From contig JALXAG010000200.1 of NCBI GenBank assembly GCA_026992315.1, positions 1-44,392 on the forward strand: DNA of 44,392 nt, written 5' to 3'. The notes below the pieces were generated by a model that searched no databases, had not been told where the DNA came from, and saw only the letters and a list, made by a program, of their open reading frames with translations. This document shows positions 37,010-44,392 of this stretch, piece after piece (within the stretch, counting starts at the first letter, position 1; each line of letters starts with the position of its first letter). A program made the translations under genes and the position numbers. Source of the DNA: Sneathiellales bacterium. Lineage in GTDB: Bacteria; Pseudomonadota; Alphaproteobacteria; Minwuiales; Minwuiaceae.

Positions 37010-37627
37010 ATGTATTATACGACCGACAAGCATCACGGCCTGAAACACAACCCCTTCAATGCGCTGATCGTTCCCCGGCCGATCGGCTGGATTTCGACGA
37101 TCGCGGCCAATGGCGATGTCAATCTGGCGCCCTTTTCCTTCTTCAATGCCGTGGCCTACACGCCGCCCATGGTCATGTTCGCCTGCAACGGGCCGCATGC
37201 CGAGGGGGGGATCAAGGACAGCCTGCACAACATTCGCGAAACCGGGGAATTCGTCGTCAATATCGTCAGCTACGATCAGCGCCACGCCATGAATGCCACA
37301 TCGGCGCCGGCCGCGCGCAATGTGGATGAATTCGGCCTTGCCGGGCTCGAAGCCCTGCCTTCGAACACGGTCAGCCCGCCCAGGGTCGCGGGCAGCCCGG
37401 CGCATCTGGAATGCGTGCTGGAACAGATCGTCTCCCTGCCCTGCACGGCGGAGGATTCGAGCAACAACATGGTCATCGGCCGGGTCACGGCCATCCATAT
37501 CGACGATGCCGTCATCCGCGACGGGCGCGTCGATATTTCATTGATGCGCCCGCTCAGCCGTCTTGGCTATATGGATTATGCGGTGGTGGATGACAGCTTC
37601 GAACTGCAGCGGCCGGAGGGGGGATAA
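37010..37627 (+). CDS. flavin reductase-like / FMN-binding split-barrel protein
   Basis: 205 aa; HNPFNALIVPRPIGWISTIAANGDVNLAPFSFFNAVAYTPPMVMFAC, GEFVVNIVS. Confidence 0.9.
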   Translation: MYYTTDKHHGLKHNPFNALIVPRPIGWISTIAANGDVNLAPFSFFNAVAYTPPMVMFACNGPHAEGGIKDSLHNIRETGEFVVNIVSYDQRHAMNATSAPAARNVDEFGLAGLEALPSNTVSPPRVAGSPAHLECVLEQIVSLPCTAEDSSNNMVIGRVTAIHIDDAVIRDGRVDISLMRPLSRLGYMDYAVVDDSFELQRPEGG

Positions 37628-37653: not shown

Positions 37654-38871
37654 TCAGCCGCCCTCGGCCGCCTGTCCGGCAAAGCGATTCATCCTGACCC
37701 AGCCGATGACGGTGACGGCGATCATCAGCAGGGTGATGAACTGCAGCAGCGCGCCAAGGCCGAAAACGACGATGATCGATGCGCCGGTGACGATAAAGAC
37801 CGTGTTGATGATCCCGAAAAAAATCTCCATCCGCGACAAGACATAAACGCGGTCGGCCGGGCTCATGGCGCCGAGGCCCAGATTCTCCAGGGAAATCGGC
37901 CGCACGCTGCCGGAACCGAAACCGAACAGTGCCGTCGCCACGGTCAGCGGATAGAGAAGCTCGTTGAAAAACCCCGGATTGGCGATGGTGAACCAGAACA
38001 GCAGAAACGACAGGATCATCGCCCCGGTCATCAGCGCATAGGTGGCATTGAGCCCGAAAAGGCTGACCAGCCTTCCGTAACGCAGCGCCGAGATGAAGGC
38101 AAACAGCGAATACAGGCTCAGCAGAATGCCGAAGAGATACGGATCCATCATCAGCTGGATGAAATAAAACGGCAGAAAGCACAGGAACGGCGCCAGGGAC
38201 AGGGAACGGACAATCGCATAATAGCTTGTCCAGAAAAGGGTTTTTCCGTCATTGACCGCGGCGCTGACGGCTGCTTTCTCCCTCCCATCGCCCGTGGCAT
38301 CAGCCGTCGCGGTGCTTTCCGTCCCCCCGATGAAGAGCAAAAGAATCAGGGTGGTGGCGATCCCGGCGAGGACAGAGGCATAAAAGGGCAAATGCTCGTC
38401 ATGGGCATACAGAACGACACCGGCGAAACCGGAAAGGAAGGTGCTGACGAACATCAGCCCCTGCGAATTGGACAGGATGGTGGCCAGCCGGCCCGATTCC
38501 GTGACCGACTTGTCCCCGGTCATGATCTCCGTATCCCGGGAAATGCAGAAACCGAAGCCCAGCCCGCCAAGCGCCTGCCCCAGGGCCACGGTTGCGAAAC
38601 TGACCCCGGCCTGTTCCGTACCGGCGATAATGAGATAAACCCCCAGCAGCTTGCACGTCTCGCCAAAAACCAAGGCGGGCTTGCAGGGAAGGCGATGCCG
38701 TAATGCACTCGAAGCCGTGGCGGAAAAAGAGATGACCAGACCGTAAATAGAGATCAGTACGGAAGAATAAAAAAGCCCGAACCCCACCTGATAAAGAAAA
38801 ATAAAAAGAATGATAACATGAAAATACATGCGGGAAAAAATACGGTAAATATAGAAAATGTAGACATTCAT
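37654..38871 (-). CDS. MFS-type transporter
   Basis: About 12 hydrophobic segments; GLGFGFCISRDTEIMTGD; AT-rich 5' coding region. ATG at 38871 preferred (track uses TTG at 38883). Confidence 0.8.
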   Translation of the reverse strand: MNVYIFYIYRIFSRMYFHVIILFIFLYQVGFGLFYSSVLISIYGLVISFSATASSALRHRLPCKPALVFGETCKLLGVYLIIAGTEQAGVSFATVALGQALGGLGFGFCISRDTEIMTGDKSVTESGRLATILSNSQGLMFVSTFLSGFAGVVLYAHDEHLPFYASVLAGIATTLILLLFIGGTESTATADATGDGREKAAVSAAVNDGKTLFWTSYYAIVRSLSLAPFLCFLPFYFIQLMMDPYLFGILLSLYSLFAFISALRYGRLVSLFGLNATYALMTGAMILSFLLFWFTIANPGFFNELLYPLTVATALFGFGSGSVRPISLENLGLGAMSPADRVYVLSRMEIFFGIINTVFIVTGASIIVVFGLGALLQFITLLMIAVTVIGWVRMNRFAGQAAEGG

Positions 38872-39324
38872 AATACGAAACAACCGCCTTTATCCAAAGC
38901 CGTTCCCAGGATTCAGATCCTAGACGCCCCCTCCCGCACCTTACCACCGGCTGCCATAGCCATGGCATCGCCCCGCCAAACGGCCAGACAAGCTTCAGAC
39001 ACCATTTTTACGGCGCTTTCTATACCTTTGTATATATTTTTTGGCCAGGTGAGGCAACAGCCTGTCAAGCCTGCAAAAACATATCCGGAAAACAACAAAA
39101 CGATAAACATGCACATACACAAATATTAATCATACATATGTCATCATTAATTTTAATACATAAAAATATAAATACGTGTATTTGCAAATATATACAATAG
39201 TATTTAAACCTTCATTAACATGTCAAGCTCTGCGATATATGACTTCGTAGCATAAAAACAAATATTTACTGCCTGAAATCATCAAAAACACAGGCAAAAG
39301 GCGATTGAGACAGGGAGCATCATT
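38800..39324. promoter_or_regulatory. AT-rich divergent control region with palindromes
   Basis: 39121-39180 contains 9 G/C of 60 (hand count). Palindromes: ACATATGT 39134-39141; AAATAC-GT-GTATTT 39170-39183; TATTTGCAAATA 39179-39190. Confidence 0.7.
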
Positions 39325-39990
39325 ATGGATGCAGCAAACCACCATTCCTTGAACACGGATTCCGGCCATGCTGCCGGCCATCACTCCGCTACCGCCTGGT
39401 CCGACACCGGAGCGCCGGATTTCATTCATCCGCCACTGACGAGCTATAGCGAAACCAGGGGCGAGGCTGCCTATCGCAGCGTTTCCACCCTTGGTCCCGA
39501 ACGCACCAACAGCCACGATGCCGCACTGAGCTTTCTGCTCTCGCGCGGCGGCAGCGGCCAGCCGCTTCTTTGCCGCACGGCCGAGGATTCGATCGAAGCC
39601 CTGCTCGATGGCAAGGTCGATGGCTGCGTCGTCTGCAACCTCTATCCCGATATTCACAAGCTCTATCTGCCGAACCTTCACCGCATCTATGCCGCCGATG
39701 TCTTTCTGTATACGGCGGAAATGGGCCTTTTCGCCCGCGATGAAGCACAGACCATCCGCACCGTCGCCGCCCCGCCGACATCGACCGCCTTCATTCAGGA
39801 CGATCTTGCAAGCGACAATTTCGAATGGATCTGGGCGCCCAGCAATACCGAAGCCGCACGCATGTGCCGGCGCGGGGAAGTTGACGGCGCCGTCGGCACC
39901 GATGCCTCCGCGGAAGAAGAAGAACTTATAAAAATCAGGGACTTCGGCGCATTTTCAGTCCCTTACACCGTTTTCCGCCTGAAACGATAA
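39325..39990 (+). CDS. prephenate-dehydratase-fold protein, BacA/prephenate-decarboxylase-like
   Basis: 221 aa; VSTLGPERTNSHDAALSFL resembles the PDT N-terminal motif; SNTEAARMCRRGEVDGAVGTDASAEEEELIKIRDFGAFSVPYTVFRLK; no ACT domain; SD AGGGAG upstream. Confidence 0.65.
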   Translation: MDAANHHSLNTDSGHAAGHHSATAWSDTGAPDFIHPPLTSYSETRGEAAYRSVSTLGPERTNSHDAALSFLLSRGGSGQPLLCRTAEDSIEALLDGKVDGCVVCNLYPDIHKLYLPNLHRIYAADVFLYTAEMGLFARDEAQTIRTVAAPPTSTAFIQDDLASDNFEWIWAPSNTEAARMCRRGEVDGAVGTDASAEEEELIKIRDFGAFSVPYTVFRLKR

Positions 39991-40015
39991 CCACAAAATA
40001 TCAGGAGCGCCGATC

Positions 40016-41713
40016 ATGGAGATGGCCGTTCAACCAAGAATTTCGGACAGCCCGGCAAAACTGGACAGGGCCCTGCGCCTGCGCGGACGGCGCGGCATAT
40101 CCATTCATATGATCTCGGTGCCGACACCGGTTCTGCTGCGCGCCGATCAGCCCATATCCCCCAACAGGACCAATTACTTTCCCACCCCGCAACTGATGCT
40201 GGCAAGCGCCGTTCAAACCCGCTTCGAACGCGAAGACATCCCCTGGGACGTGCATTTCAGCGACTTCAAGAGCATTCCGGATATGAACGCATGGGATGCC
40301 GATCTGCGCCCGTACGAGGAGTTCGTCTATGGCGGGCATACAGTAACCAAATGCTTCGTCGGCGACGGTCTCGAACGCCTGGAAGAGGAATTGCAGGAAG
40401 CGGATATCGTCTGCATCACCGCCAATTTCACCCTCGAAGCCCGGCCCGTGGTCGAAGCGATCGCCGCCCTGCGGCGCATGGAAAAGGACAAGCTGATCCT
40501 TGTCGGCGGCCGCGATGCCATGGCGCGCCCGGATTATTTTCTGCGCATGGGGGCGGATCTCGTCGCCTATGGCGATGCCGACCTCGCCCTGCCGGAACTG
40601 CTGGTGCGCATTTACCGCGGCGGGGATCTGACGGGCCTGGTACAGGGCGGAAGGCTTCTGCCCGCTGCCGGGCGGATCGTGCTCGACGAACTGCCGCTGA
40701 TACGCTTCGGTTTTCTCCGCCGTCCCCTCACCCATTATTGCGAAAGCGGCGGCGGCCAGTTCCTGCCGAGCATTCTGGAAAAGGGCGGCGTCGCCTATTT
40801 CGAAACATCCCGCGGCTGCTTCCGCGAATGCAATTTCTGCACCGAACGCCTGACCAGGCGCAGCGAAATGAGCCTTGCCCGCTTCAGGGAGGAAGTGGAC
40901 TGGTACCGCGCCAACGGCGTCAACACCATCATGCTGTCGGACGACAATCTGCTGCAGCGACTCAACCACGCCGAACGCGGCGAGCGCGAACTGATCGCGA
41001 TGTTCGAATATCTCCATGAACGGCAGATGGTCTGGGAATTCCCGGTCGGCATCGAAATCGGACGCCTGATGCGCAGGGACAGCCAGGAATTCCACGAACG
41101 CCTGTTCGATCTGATGTTCTGGAACAACGACGATCCGGACGATTTCGCCGGCGCCTTCCGCAGCCTGATCCCCTTCGAGAACGTTCTGCGTGCCGACGAC
41201 AGCGCGCTCAGGCTCAAAAAAATGCGCTCGATCAATGAAAACTTCCGCATCCTGAGCCGGGTCATCGCCTCGGGCATACCGCAAGTCAATCTGGCGGTCA
41301 TGATCGGTTTTCCTCATGACACCGAAGCCTCGCTTGCCGATACCCGGCGTAATCTCGAGGAAATTTCCAGGCTGCGCCGGGAAATCGCCGACGCCTCGCC
41401 CAGAACCATAAAAACGCATATCAACTTCAGCCTGTTCACCGCCACCCCCTATCCGGGCACGCCCTATTTCACCGAAGCGCTGCGCGAAAGGCGCATGGAA
41501 TACGATATCGAGGAACATCCCGAATTGTGGAACCTCTATACCTCCGTGGTGCGCGGGGACACGTTCAGCGCCGCCCGTACGACGGAAAACCGCCTCGAAC
41601 TTCTGGAACTGACCCGCTCGCATCATGTCAGCGGCAAGGTCAAGCTCCATCTCGCGGATGAGGCCCTGCCCCGCAGCACACCGCCCGCCGCCACCGTGAC
41701 GGAGGTGGCCTGA
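40016..41713 (+). CDS. radical SAM protein with cobalamin-binding-like N-terminal domain
   Basis: 565 aa; ETSRGCFRECNFC (CxxxCxxC); NTIMLSDDNLLQ; N-terminal Rossmann-like DIVCITANFTLEARPVVEAIAALRRMEKDKLILVGGRDAMARPDYFLRMGADLVAYGDADLALPELL; SD AGGAG. Confidence 0.88.
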   Translation: MEMAVQPRISDSPAKLDRALRLRGRRGISIHMISVPTPVLLRADQPISPNRTNYFPTPQLMLASAVQTRFEREDIPWDVHFSDFKSIPDMNAWDADLRPYEEFVYGGHTVTKCFVGDGLERLEEELQEADIVCITANFTLEARPVVEAIAALRRMEKDKLILVGGRDAMARPDYFLRMGADLVAYGDADLALPELLVRIYRGGDLTGLVQGGRLLPAAGRIVLDELPLIRFGFLRRPLTHYCESGGGQFLPSILEKGGVAYFETSRGCFRECNFCTERLTRRSEMSLARFREEVDWYRANGVNTIMLSDDNLLQRLNHAERGERELIAMFEYLHERQMVWEFPVGIEIGRLMRRDSQEFHERLFDLMFWNNDDPDDFAGAFRSLIPFENVLRADDSALRLKKMRSINENFRILSRVIASGIPQVNLAVMIGFPHDTEASLADTRRNLEEISRLRREIADASPRTIKTHINFSLFTATPYPGTPYFTEALRERRMEYDIEEHPELWNLYTSVVRGDTFSAARTTENRLELLELTRSHHVSGKVKLHLADEALPRSTPPAATVTEVA

Positions 41714-42699
41714 TGTCCATTCAGCAACCGCCCATTCTGATCGTCAGCACCGGCCGCTGCGGCTCGACGCTGTTATCGCAACTTCTGCGTGAACACGACG
41801 ATGTTCTGAGCCTGTCGGAATTCTGGCCCAACCGGGTAAACCTGCCGCAACTCTTCGCCACCGAACCGATCTGCGGATCGGATTACTGGCAGTTGCTCAG
41901 CGTTCCCATGGCCGGGGACATTTACCGCATCGCCCTTGGCGGCAAGATTTCGCAAGTGCCCAAACGCACCCTGCACGAACGCAACTACATGCGCCGTATC
42001 GCCCTGCCATCGCTGGTCGACGATTACGAGTCGCTGTTCAGGGAAATCGAGTTGTTCATGCAGGCCCGACCGACCGCCCGGCCGGCGGAGCATGTAAAGG
42101 CCATGTTCGGTTTCATTGCCGAACGTCTGGGCAAGCAGGTCTGGGTCGAACGCACGGGGGCCAGTATCGAATATCTGCCGCTATGGCTGAAAATGTGGCC
42201 GGAAATGAAGGTGGTGCACATGTACCGCGACGGGCGCAACACCGCCCTGTCGATGAGCAAACACCATGCCTTCCGCCTGATGATCATGCGCGCCGAGGCC
42301 GACCCCGAAAGCTCGTGGCTGCATATTCGCCCGCTGCCGGACGATACGCTCGATCTCGATGCCTTCTATGCCCGGGAAATTCCCCTCGCATCCTTCGGAC
42401 GGTTGTGGAACCGGATGATCTGCGAAGGCGTTGCCCATCTGCGCCAGTTGCCCGCGGCCCAGCAGCACTGGCTGCGCTACGAGGATCTTCTGGCGGCGCC
42501 GGAACGAACGCTGAGCGAGCTTCTGGCCTTCATCGATCCGATGCTTCCGGCACGGGAATGGGCAGAGCGATGCGCACGGAGCCTTCACCCCCCGCGTAAT
42601 GACTGGCGCGCGCTCGATCCCGCTCAGCGCCGGGAACTGCAGGCCGCCTGCCGCGAAGGGCTGAACATCCTCGGCTACAAGGAAGAGGAGGCAGCCTGA
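41713..42699 (+). CDS. sulfotransferase family protein
   Basis: 328 aa; PPILIVSTGRCGSTLLSQLLREH (5'-PSB loop); VVHMYRDGRNTALSMSKHHAF (3'-PB motif). TGATG overlap with upstream gene. Confidence 0.85.
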   Translation: MSIQQPPILIVSTGRCGSTLLSQLLREHDDVLSLSEFWPNRVNLPQLFATEPICGSDYWQLLSVPMAGDIYRIALGGKISQVPKRTLHERNYMRRIALPSLVDDYESLFREIELFMQARPTARPAEHVKAMFGFIAERLGKQVWVERTGASIEYLPLWLKMWPEMKVVHMYRDGRNTALSMSKHHAFRLMIMRAEADPESSWLHIRPLPDDTLDLDAFYAREIPLASFGRLWNRMICEGVAHLRQLPAAQQHWLRYEDLLAAPERTLSELLAFIDPMLPAREWAERCARSLHPPRNDWRALDPAQRRELQAACREGLNILGYKEEEAA

Positions 42700-44015
42700 T
42701 GCCCGCCCTGAATAACGGCATCCGCCGCGAAAGCCATGAAAGCGCCGGACTGATCCATGACTGGAACGAAGAACCGGCCGCCACTGCCCATCGCGTGCAG
42801 GTACTGGATGACACCATCCGCGACGGGCTGCAATCGCCCTCGGTCCGCGATCCGGAGCTTGAGGAAAAGCAGGAACTGCTGCGTCTGGCCCATCGCGTCG
42901 GCGTCGATGGCGTGGTGCTGGGACTGCCCGGCGCCGGCCCGCGCGCCTGCGCCGAAGTGGCGGCGCTGGCCGGCTTTCTGCAGCGCGAACGCCTCTCGCC
43001 GGAGCCGGTGACCGGGGTCAGAACCCACAAAGACGACATTCACGCCCATCTGAACGCCTGCGAACAAAGCGGCAGCGCCATGACGGCCGGCATGTTCCTG
43101 GGTTCATCGCCCATGCGGCTGTTCGCCGAAGGGTGGGAGATGCGCGATCTGGTCAGGCTGACGGCGGATTCCGTCGCCCTCGCCGTCAGGGGCGGCGCAC
43201 CGGTCATGTTCATCACCGAAGACACCACGCGTTCACGCCCCGAAGACCTGCGCGATCTGTACCGCGCCGCGCTCGATGCCGGGGCGGCGCGCCTCTGCCT
43301 GGCCGATACGGTCGGTCACGCCGAACCTTCCGCTGTGCGGGCACTGATCCGCTTCGCCCGGGACCTGATCGAGGAAAGCGGCACCGGTGCCGCGCTGGAC
43401 TGGCACGGTCACAACGATCGCGGGCTGGCGCTGGCCAATGCGCTGGCCGCCGCCGATGCGGGGGCGGACCGCATTCACGCCACCTGCCTGGGAATAGGGG
43501 AGCGCATCGGCAATACCGCCCTGGATCAGTTGCTGGTCAATCTGGAACTGCGCGGCGAACCGACCGGACGCAATCTGGATGCCCTGCCGGAATACTGCAG
43601 GCGCGTGCATGAATGGTGCAACGCCCCCCTCCCGGTCAATTACCCGATGTTGGGATCCGACGCCTTCCGCACCGCCACCGGCGTCCATGCCGCGGCCATC
43701 GTCAAGGCACTGGATCAGGGCGATCCGTGGCTTGCCGACCGGGTCTATTCGGCGGTGCCGGCCTCGTTGCTCGGCCGTGAACAGCAGATCGAAATCGGTT
43801 TCATGTCCGGACGCAACAATGTCCTGTACTGGTTGCGCCGGCATTACCCGCAGATGGCGGAAGATCTGCGCGAGTGCTGCATGGACCGGATTCTGGCCGC
43901 CGCCAAGTCCGCGCGCGCCCTGCTCGATGACGAAAAATTACACCATATCGTCCATGAAACCTGCCAGCAGGCTGCACCGGCAAAGGCATCCGCCACCAGC
44001 GCGGGGGCGGCGTAA
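42699..44015 (+). CDS. HMGL-like (2-isopropylmalate/homocitrate synthase family) enzyme
   Basis: 438 aa; VLDDTIRDGLQS; FITEDTTRSRPEDL; LADTVGHAEPSAV; DWHGHNDRGLALANALAAADAGADRIHATCLGIGERIGNTALDQLLVNL. TGATG overlap with upstream gene. Confidence 0.9.
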   Translation: MPALNNGIRRESHESAGLIHDWNEEPAATAHRVQVLDDTIRDGLQSPSVRDPELEEKQELLRLAHRVGVDGVVLGLPGAGPRACAEVAALAGFLQRERLSPEPVTGVRTHKDDIHAHLNACEQSGSAMTAGMFLGSSPMRLFAEGWEMRDLVRLTADSVALAVRGGAPVMFITEDTTRSRPEDLRDLYRAALDAGAARLCLADTVGHAEPSAVRALIRFARDLIEESGTGAALDWHGHNDRGLALANALAAADAGADRIHATCLGIGERIGNTALDQLLVNLELRGEPTGRNLDALPEYCRRVHEWCNAPLPVNYPMLGSDAFRTATGVHAAAIVKALDQGDPWLADRVYSAVPASLLGREQQIEIGFMSGRNNVLYWLRRHYPQMAEDLRECCMDRILAAAKSARALLDDEKLHHIVHETCQQAAPAKASATSAGAA

Positions 44016-44392
44016 TGAAACCGGCGCTGACCCTGACCCAGAAGATACTGGCCCGCCACCAGCGCGGCGGCGGCCTGCCGCTGCCGGGCAACAGCATCCG
44101 TATCGGCGTCGACTGGATCATGGCCTCGGAACTGGCGCTGAACGGCATGATGAACACGTTTCAGCGCCTGAACAATCCGCCCCTGCGCGATCCGGCGCAT
44201 TTTTACCTTGCCATCGACCATACGGTCGATCCGGTCACGGTGGCGCAGAATCCCGCCACGCAACGCCTGGTACGCCTGTCGCGCGATTTCGCCGCCCGTC
44301 ACGGGCTCACGGCCTTTTACGATGCCAATGAAACGATCATGCATACCCGTTTCTATCGCGATCACTGCCTGCCCGGGCAGATCGTCGTCGGG
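44015..44392 (+). CDS. aconitase/3-isopropylmalate dehydratase large-subunit-like protein, truncated by the window edge
   Basis: 126 codons visible: MKPALTLTQKILARH...FYLAIDHTVDPVTVAQNPATQRLVRLSRDFAARHGLTAFYDANETIMHTRFYRDHCLPGQIVVG, matching the LeuC N-terminal pattern. TAATG overlap with upstream gene. Confidence 0.75.
   Translation, partial: MKPALTLTQKILARHQRGGGLPLPGNSIRIGVDWIMASELALNGMMNTFQRLNNPPLRDPAHFYLAIDHTVDPVTVAQNPATQRLVRLSRDFAARHGLTAFYDANETIMHTRFYRDHCLPGQIVVG

Follow-up and report, generated by a model that had tools for sequence, protein, structure and literature searches.

A conserved ten-gene operon with leucine-pathway-like, YrdC-like and putative dimetal oxygenase genes in a Sneathiellales bacterium

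The window considered here is a 44,392-nucleotide stretch of DNA from a Sneathiellales bacterium (GenBank assembly GCA_026992315.1, contig JALXAG010000200.1, positions 1 to 44,392), and its right end lies inside an operon. A first-pass annotation of the window had described five open reading frames (ORFs) on the plus strand, and both their coordinates and their junctions are exact. The last four are joined by 1-nt stop/start overlaps (TGATG at 41711 and 42697, TAATG at 44013), and 25 nt lie between the stop of the first gene and the start of the second. The operon had also been predicted to continue past the window edge, and it does. In the assembly (3.15 Mb, 284 contigs) the window corresponds to contig C200, whose right end overlaps contig C270 over 138 b with 1 mismatch (99%), and C270 overlaps contig C96 over 127 b with 0 mismatches (100%). 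The joined C200, C270 and C96 sequence holds ten genes with intergenic gaps of -1 to 57 nt. They are given below in order, after a divergent major facilitator superfamily (MFS) gene that starts 441 nt upstream of the operon.

37654..38883, minus strand: MFS transporter, probable exporter, divergent from the operon (PF07690, weak)
39325..39990, plus strand: prephenate dehydratase (PDT)-like protein of the TdaC type, 221 aa (PF00800, E=4.4e-7)
40016..41713, plus strand: B12-binding radical S-adenosylmethionine (SAM) protein (PF04055 and PF02310; CxxxCxxC at residues 268-275)
41713..42699, plus strand: sulfotransferase (Sulfotransfer_3, E=1.2e-19; both loops for the sulfate donor PAPS, 3'-phosphoadenosine-5'-phosphosulfate)
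42699..44015, plus strand: isopropylmalate synthase (IPMS)/homocitrate-synthase-like enzyme of the HMGL family (HMGL-like domain, E=6e-42)
44015..44392, plus strand: 5' part of a LeuC-LeuD fusion (LeuC family; whole protein 664 aa), which ends at L004:1755 (joined position 46009)
46022-46720, joined coordinates: YrdC-like protein 1 (YrdC1)
46778-47503, joined coordinates: heme-oxygenase-like dimetal oxidase (HDO)
47519-48712, joined coordinates: PF04909 oxygenase-like protein (annotated as an amidohydrolase)
48723-49442, joined coordinates: YrdC-like protein 2 (YrdC2)
49474-50688, joined coordinates: HlyD-like adaptor

This operon is real and conserved, and it is undescribed in the literature and collections searched. 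The key comparison is with G712, a single-contig 4.36-Mb genome from a different family of the same class, found by a PF04909 profile search of 367 genomes of the class. All ten genes are present there in the same order and on the same strand, at 50-78% identity (PDT-like 68%, radical SAM 69%, sulfotransferase 76%, LeuA-like 68%, LeuCD 69%, YrdC1 65%, HDO 72%, PF04909 78%, YrdC2 65% and HlyD 50%). Sharing of ten genes, their order and their strand makes this a conserved unit and not a chance arrangement. The MFS protein encoded near the G712 operon is 60% identical to that of the window, and an extra gene between LeuCD and YrdC1 encodes a flavin monooxygenase, judging from its translation. Ratios of nonsynonymous to synonymous change (pN/pS) between the two operons are 0.24-0.55 across the ten genes, values that are rough because synonymous sites are near saturation. 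Every gene of the operon is under purifying selection. The LeuA-type enzymes of G712 are only 29-32% identical, which makes them unusable as a housekeeping baseline for identity between the two genomes.

The operon is rare. A profile of the radical SAM protein detected it in 0 other of 182 relatives of G712, and the protein itself used as a query found nothing close in 95 relatives from the class, 299 genomes of the phylum or 39 LeuA-bearing genomes. No close relative came from a contig collection, viral sets or phages; the miss in the contig collection is no evidence of absence, because 0/6 exact 8-residue probes match the G712 protein. No paper on this set of genes came out of the literature searches. 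The view that the combination is undescribed holds for everything searched, and its genes do co-occur in another genome, G712.

The families first assigned to the five window genes (PDT-like, B12/radical SAM, sulfotransferase, IPMS-like and a LeuC-type N-terminus) are confirmed by Pfam and NCBIfam hidden Markov models (HMMs). The PDT-like protein scores above the PF00800 gathering cut-off, with 38% identity to its nearest relative, a Serpentinimonas plasmid protein, and 30% to the prephenate-dehydratase-like protein of a Phaeobacter gene set identified as tda from the neighbouring genes. In prephenate dehydratase the motif TRF is catalytic. It reads TVF in the window and in G712, and its arginine is also absent from the Serpentinimonas and Phaeobacter relatives. 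With that arginine lost, the protein is unlikely to be a genuine prephenate dehydratase. It resembles TdaC of tropodithietic acid synthesis in being a short PDT-like domain that lacks an ACT domain and the TRF motif, but the identity is only 30% and no other tda-type gene is found in the operon. On Serpentinimonas plasmid pSMB1 (L016:3502-5785) the PDT-like protein is encoded in an operon with DUF6421 and NTF2-like proteins.

The radical SAM protein matches PF04055 (E=4.4e-7) and the B12-binding domain PF02310 (E=8.8e-6, which taken alone is below the gathering cut-off, at 26 of 32.1 bits). Its CxxxCxxC motif is kept in G712, so that it has the motif and domains of a B12-dependent radical SAM protein. 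In the PDB only TokK, a methyltransferase that depends on B12, matches it, and the match is weak (E=2.8e-4). An Rfam search detected no cobalamin riboswitch or other RNA in the operon, the sole match being a tRNA in L133. The third protein belongs to the Sulfotransfer_3 family, with the PAPS loop GRCGSTLL and the 3' loop RDGRNxALSMS in both the window and G712.

The motifs of the IPMS-like enzyme and of the LeuCD fusion are intact. The former has intact DDTIRDG, HGHND and GERxGN motifs and belongs to the DRE-TIM IPMS/homocitrate synthase family, although it is not a member of the NCBIfam leuA equivalog (144 bits versus a cut-off of 598.7). A LeuD-like gene had been expected beyond the window edge, and it is present but fused to LeuC; the fusion belongs to the aconitase/LeuCD family, with its [4Fe-4S] cysteines in ACTTTEE and CHLC motifs. 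The genome has its own LeuA beside ilvC on contig C58, 26% identical to the operon enzyme, and a CimA-like enzyme on C52. With two other LeuA-type enzymes in the genome, the operon pair makes a further set, distinct from both, and is not the sole leucine pathway, which disposes of one concern attached to the original description. An alignment scan placed the IPMS-like enzyme in a clade from Myxococcota, Acidobacteriota and others (44-54% identity) and found no further operon. The LeuCD fusion is 52-55% identical to fused LeuCD proteins of Myxococcota-type genomes; LeuA and fused LeuCD lie with thiolase-like genes at a Myxococcota-type locus (L031:5829-11278). The operon resembles the LeuA/HphA-type elongation of leucine and homophenylalanine synthesis in its IPMS-like and LeuCD-like enzymes, whose motifs are intact, but differs in its fused LeuCD, its distinct clade and the lack of linked isopropylmalate dehydrogenase (IPMDH) and aminotransferase genes.

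Two candidate dimetal oxygenases are encoded in the second half of the operon. Besides decarboxylases, hydratases and hydrolases, the PF04909 family includes a defined class of amidohydrolase-related dinuclear oxygenases (PMC10811679). The operon protein matches diiron oxygenases; its best PDB match is PtmU3 (E=1e-21), followed by others including structures from the SfbO paper, AibH2 and ACMSD. The metal ligands of AibH2 are D25, H27, H211, E265, D337 and H340 (PMC7782822), and equivalents (D13, H15, H212, E264, D332 and H335) occur in 5/5 homologues, namely those of the window, G712, a second locus in the same genome (contig C139), the genome G685 and a cyanobacterium. This D/H/H/E/D/H set is shared with AibH2, and the protein is a probable amidohydrolase-related dinuclear oxygenase. 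A hydrolase reading was considered and is less likely given the match to PtmU3 and the presence of DxH...H...E...DxxH. On Gloeothece plasmids (L110, L111), PF04909 proteins with the same ligand set adjoin genes for peptide maturation of the thiazole/oxazole-modified microcin (TOMM) type.

The second candidate is the HDO. Its best HMM and PDB match is CADD, a self-sacrificing para-aminobenzoate (pABA) synthase in which Tyr27 and Lys152 are the sacrificial residues (PMC11965152). The fold family is common to the CADD/PabS pABA synthases and the operon protein. However, Tyr27 is replaced by Thr or Val and Lys152 by Val or Met in the operon and C139 copies (Thr and Val in the operon copy), and a CADD-type synthase was rejected for this reason. 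Characterised HDOs act mostly on fatty or amino acids (PMC13108848). The HDO superfamily has a three-His/three-carboxylate ligand set spread over three core helices, and of these the ligands of helices 1-2 (E/H and E) are conserved.

The two YrdC-like proteins have the PF01300 fold and keep its K-x-R and S-x-N motifs. YrdC1 is not a canonical TsaC/Sua5 (36.6 bits against TIGR00057, cut-off 123.2), and the proteins closest to YrdC2 are threonylcarbamoyl-AMP synthases. The YrdC-like domain of known carbamoyltransferases is described as forming carbamoyl-AMP, from which a Kae1-like domain transfers the carbamoyl group (PMC9633730). Fold and motifs are common to the operon proteins, the YrdC/Sua5 threonylcarbamoyl-AMP synthases and the YrdC domains of TobZ, GdmN and HypF, but the operon has two stand-alone paralogues and no Kae1-like gene. 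A Variovorax plasmid (L019:5339-13551) carries two consecutive YrdC-like genes with LeuC, LeuD, an isocitrate-lyase/PEP-mutase-family gene (PEP, phosphoenolpyruvate), an acyl-CoA ligase and CapA.

What links the YrdC-like proteins with their neighbours? One clue is that contig C139 has another, partial copy of the module, YrdC1-HDO-PF04909-MFS-YrdC2 (L115:3950-8740), with proteins 30-43% identical to those of the operon, which makes the second half of the operon a unit. In another genus, three genomes (G685, G059 and G755; L135, L136 and L137) have YrdC1 and HDO together, with PF04909 and LeuA-like genes nearby. The LeuA-like protein of these small clusters has lost the catalytic HxH (as in G685) and RDG and is a possible pseudoenzyme, and a gene that reads as citrate-synthase-like is close to YrdC1 and HDO. 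On Skermanella mucosa plasmid pSM-2 (L113:2024-17100) YrdC-HlyD-MFS genes follow biosynthetic genes that resemble fatty acid synthase and include an AMP-ligase, with LeuC/LeuD in the same region. The exporter genes of pSM-2 and of the window operon are related, and MFS homologues adjoin a YrdC-like gene both on pSM-2 and on C139. These loci speak for a function that includes export and suggest a tie between export and YrdC chemistry.

How might these enzymes work together? We think it rather probable that the operon makes and exports one small molecule, starting from a substituted malate/maleate core and modifying it afterwards. The IPMS-like enzyme would condense acetyl-CoA with an alpha-keto acid to give a 2-substituted malate, which the LeuCD fusion would dehydrate or isomerise to a maleate or a 3-substituted malate. 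Because the operon has no IPMDH, the product would probably keep a dicarboxylate skeleton, the outcome proposed for pantaphos. The PDT-like protein might turn a shikimate-derived compound into the alpha-keto acid, or be a repurposed binding or lyase fold. The HDO and PF04909 proteins could catalyse O2-dependent oxidation, desaturation or C-C cleavage. A candidate for methylating an unactivated carbon is the B12-radical SAM enzyme, and for sulfating a hydroxyl the sulfotransferase. Formation and/or transfer of a carbamoyl- or acyl-adenylate would fall to the YrdC-like pair, carbamoylation being only possible, and HlyD and the divergent MFS protein would export the product. With the YrdC-like pair, HDO, PF04909 oxygenase and HlyD revealed in the second half, the picture shifts to an oxidised, exported and non-peptidic product.

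The closest published logic is that of the pantaphos (hvr) operon of Pantoea ananatis. In the part of the hvr description drawn on here (PMC7858074), an IPMS homologue forms a substituted malate, isopropylmalate dehydratase (LeuCD) homologues take it, in the proposed route, no further than the maleate, with no IPMDH step, a flavin monooxygenase oxidises and an MFS protein exports. The G712 copy has its flavin monooxygenase, and a flavin reductase-like gene lies beside the window operon (37010-37627, convergent with the MFS gene). This gene could supply electrons to an oxygenase, which does not imply that it is an operon member. In contrast to hvr, no PEP mutase (HvrA) is encoded in the operon or the surrounding sequence analysed, the whole genome lying beyond that search, and the same part of the hvr description does not mention radical SAM, sulfotransferase, HDO, PF04909 or YrdC genes.

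Several observations do not fit so easily with a modified and exported malate/maleate derivative. In G712 a gene that translates as citrate-synthase-like separates the MFS gene from the operon. The PF04909 protein differs from PtmU3, AibH2 and SfbO in that no Rieske partner is encoded in the operon and in that the position of the second-sphere Asp342 of AibH2 (Glu313 in PtmU3) is His in the window, G712, C139 and G685; mononuclear AibH1 likewise lacks Asp there. Helix 3 of the HDO has HxxDxxH or HxxxDxH, one residue short of HxxxDxxH, in the window and G712, a difference that may affect how metal is bound; the motif is standard in the copies of C139 and G685. Finally, translated ORFs at a Myxococcota-type locus (L071:4489-11212) place LeuA and LeuCD with IPMDH-like and thiolase-like genes, and full chain elongation through an unlinked LeuB is possible.

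It is here that the product first proposed, a homologated amino acid, has to be weighed. IPMS and LeuCD would homologate a prephenate- or arylpyruvate-derived keto acid, and an unlinked LeuB and aminotransferase would complete an unusual amino acid, methylated and sulfated. The presence of both elongation enzymes, the leading position of the PDT-like gene and the company of an IPMDH-like gene in Myxococcota are all consistent with this, as is a Streptomyces KN37 NRPS/PKS cluster (nonribosomal peptide synthetase/polyketide synthase) that has LeuA, aconitase and IPMDH. However, the IPMDH, aminotransferase, NRPS and ATP-grasp genes that had been expected are in neither the completed operon nor the G712 copy (0/2), the TRF motif is lost and the second-half enzymes are left unexplained. 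Such an amino acid is therefore an unlikely end product, and a dicarboxylate core is favoured by these absences together with the hvr parallel. In short, the conserved gene set upholds the idea of a biosynthetic operon, whereas the amino acid part of that idea is weakened.

Less likely still is a catabolic or assimilation operon in which LeuCD, YrdC-like and PF04909 proteins process a branched dicarboxylate from plants or soil and the MFS protein is an importer. The Variovorax gene set described above, which also has tripartite tricarboxylate transporter genes, would suit this, as would a substrate-binding protein and tripartite-type membrane genes ~1.6 kb downstream of the G712 operon, after a LysR gene. 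However, a sulfotransferase, a B12-radical SAM methyltransferase-like protein, an IPMS-like enzyme that consumes acetyl-CoA and HlyD indicate building and exporting, and the operon has no importer-type transporter. It is very improbable that a Myxococcota-like donor contributed a set for primary metabolism (leucine, homocitrate or Re-citrate) whose neighbours are unrelated to it: the nearest LeuA/LeuCD relatives occur widely in Myxococcota and Acidobacteriota, but the genome has the separate LeuA and CimA-like enzymes and the ten genes are translationally packed and co-conserved.

Returning to the favoured malate/maleate derivative, it may tentatively be proposed, with less confidence than the core itself, that the operon represents a new class of molecules outside PKS, NRPS and ribosomally synthesised and post-translationally modified peptide (RiPP) logic. 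Such a class would combine a malate/maleate core, two dimetal oxygenases, C-methylation, sulfation and stand-alone YrdC adenylate chemistry outside tRNA modification, with no Kae1 partner. In that case two dimetal oxygenase families, B12-radical SAM chemistry, a condensation that forms malate and a pair of unexplained YrdC paralogues would come together in one short, conserved pathway to an exported product. Enzyme combinations of this kind are likely missed by standard cluster finders. Because the YrdC-HDO-PF04909 core recurs, at the C139 locus and as YrdC1-HDO-PF04909 in another genus, solving this pathway would also tell what the repeated module does.

An assembly artefact, the joins depending on end overlaps of 138 and 127 b, has a negligible chance of explaining the operon: ORFs span both joins and align across them, and the joins are beyond doubt because G712 carries the identical order uninterrupted on one contig, which also makes the complete operon directly clonable and testable.

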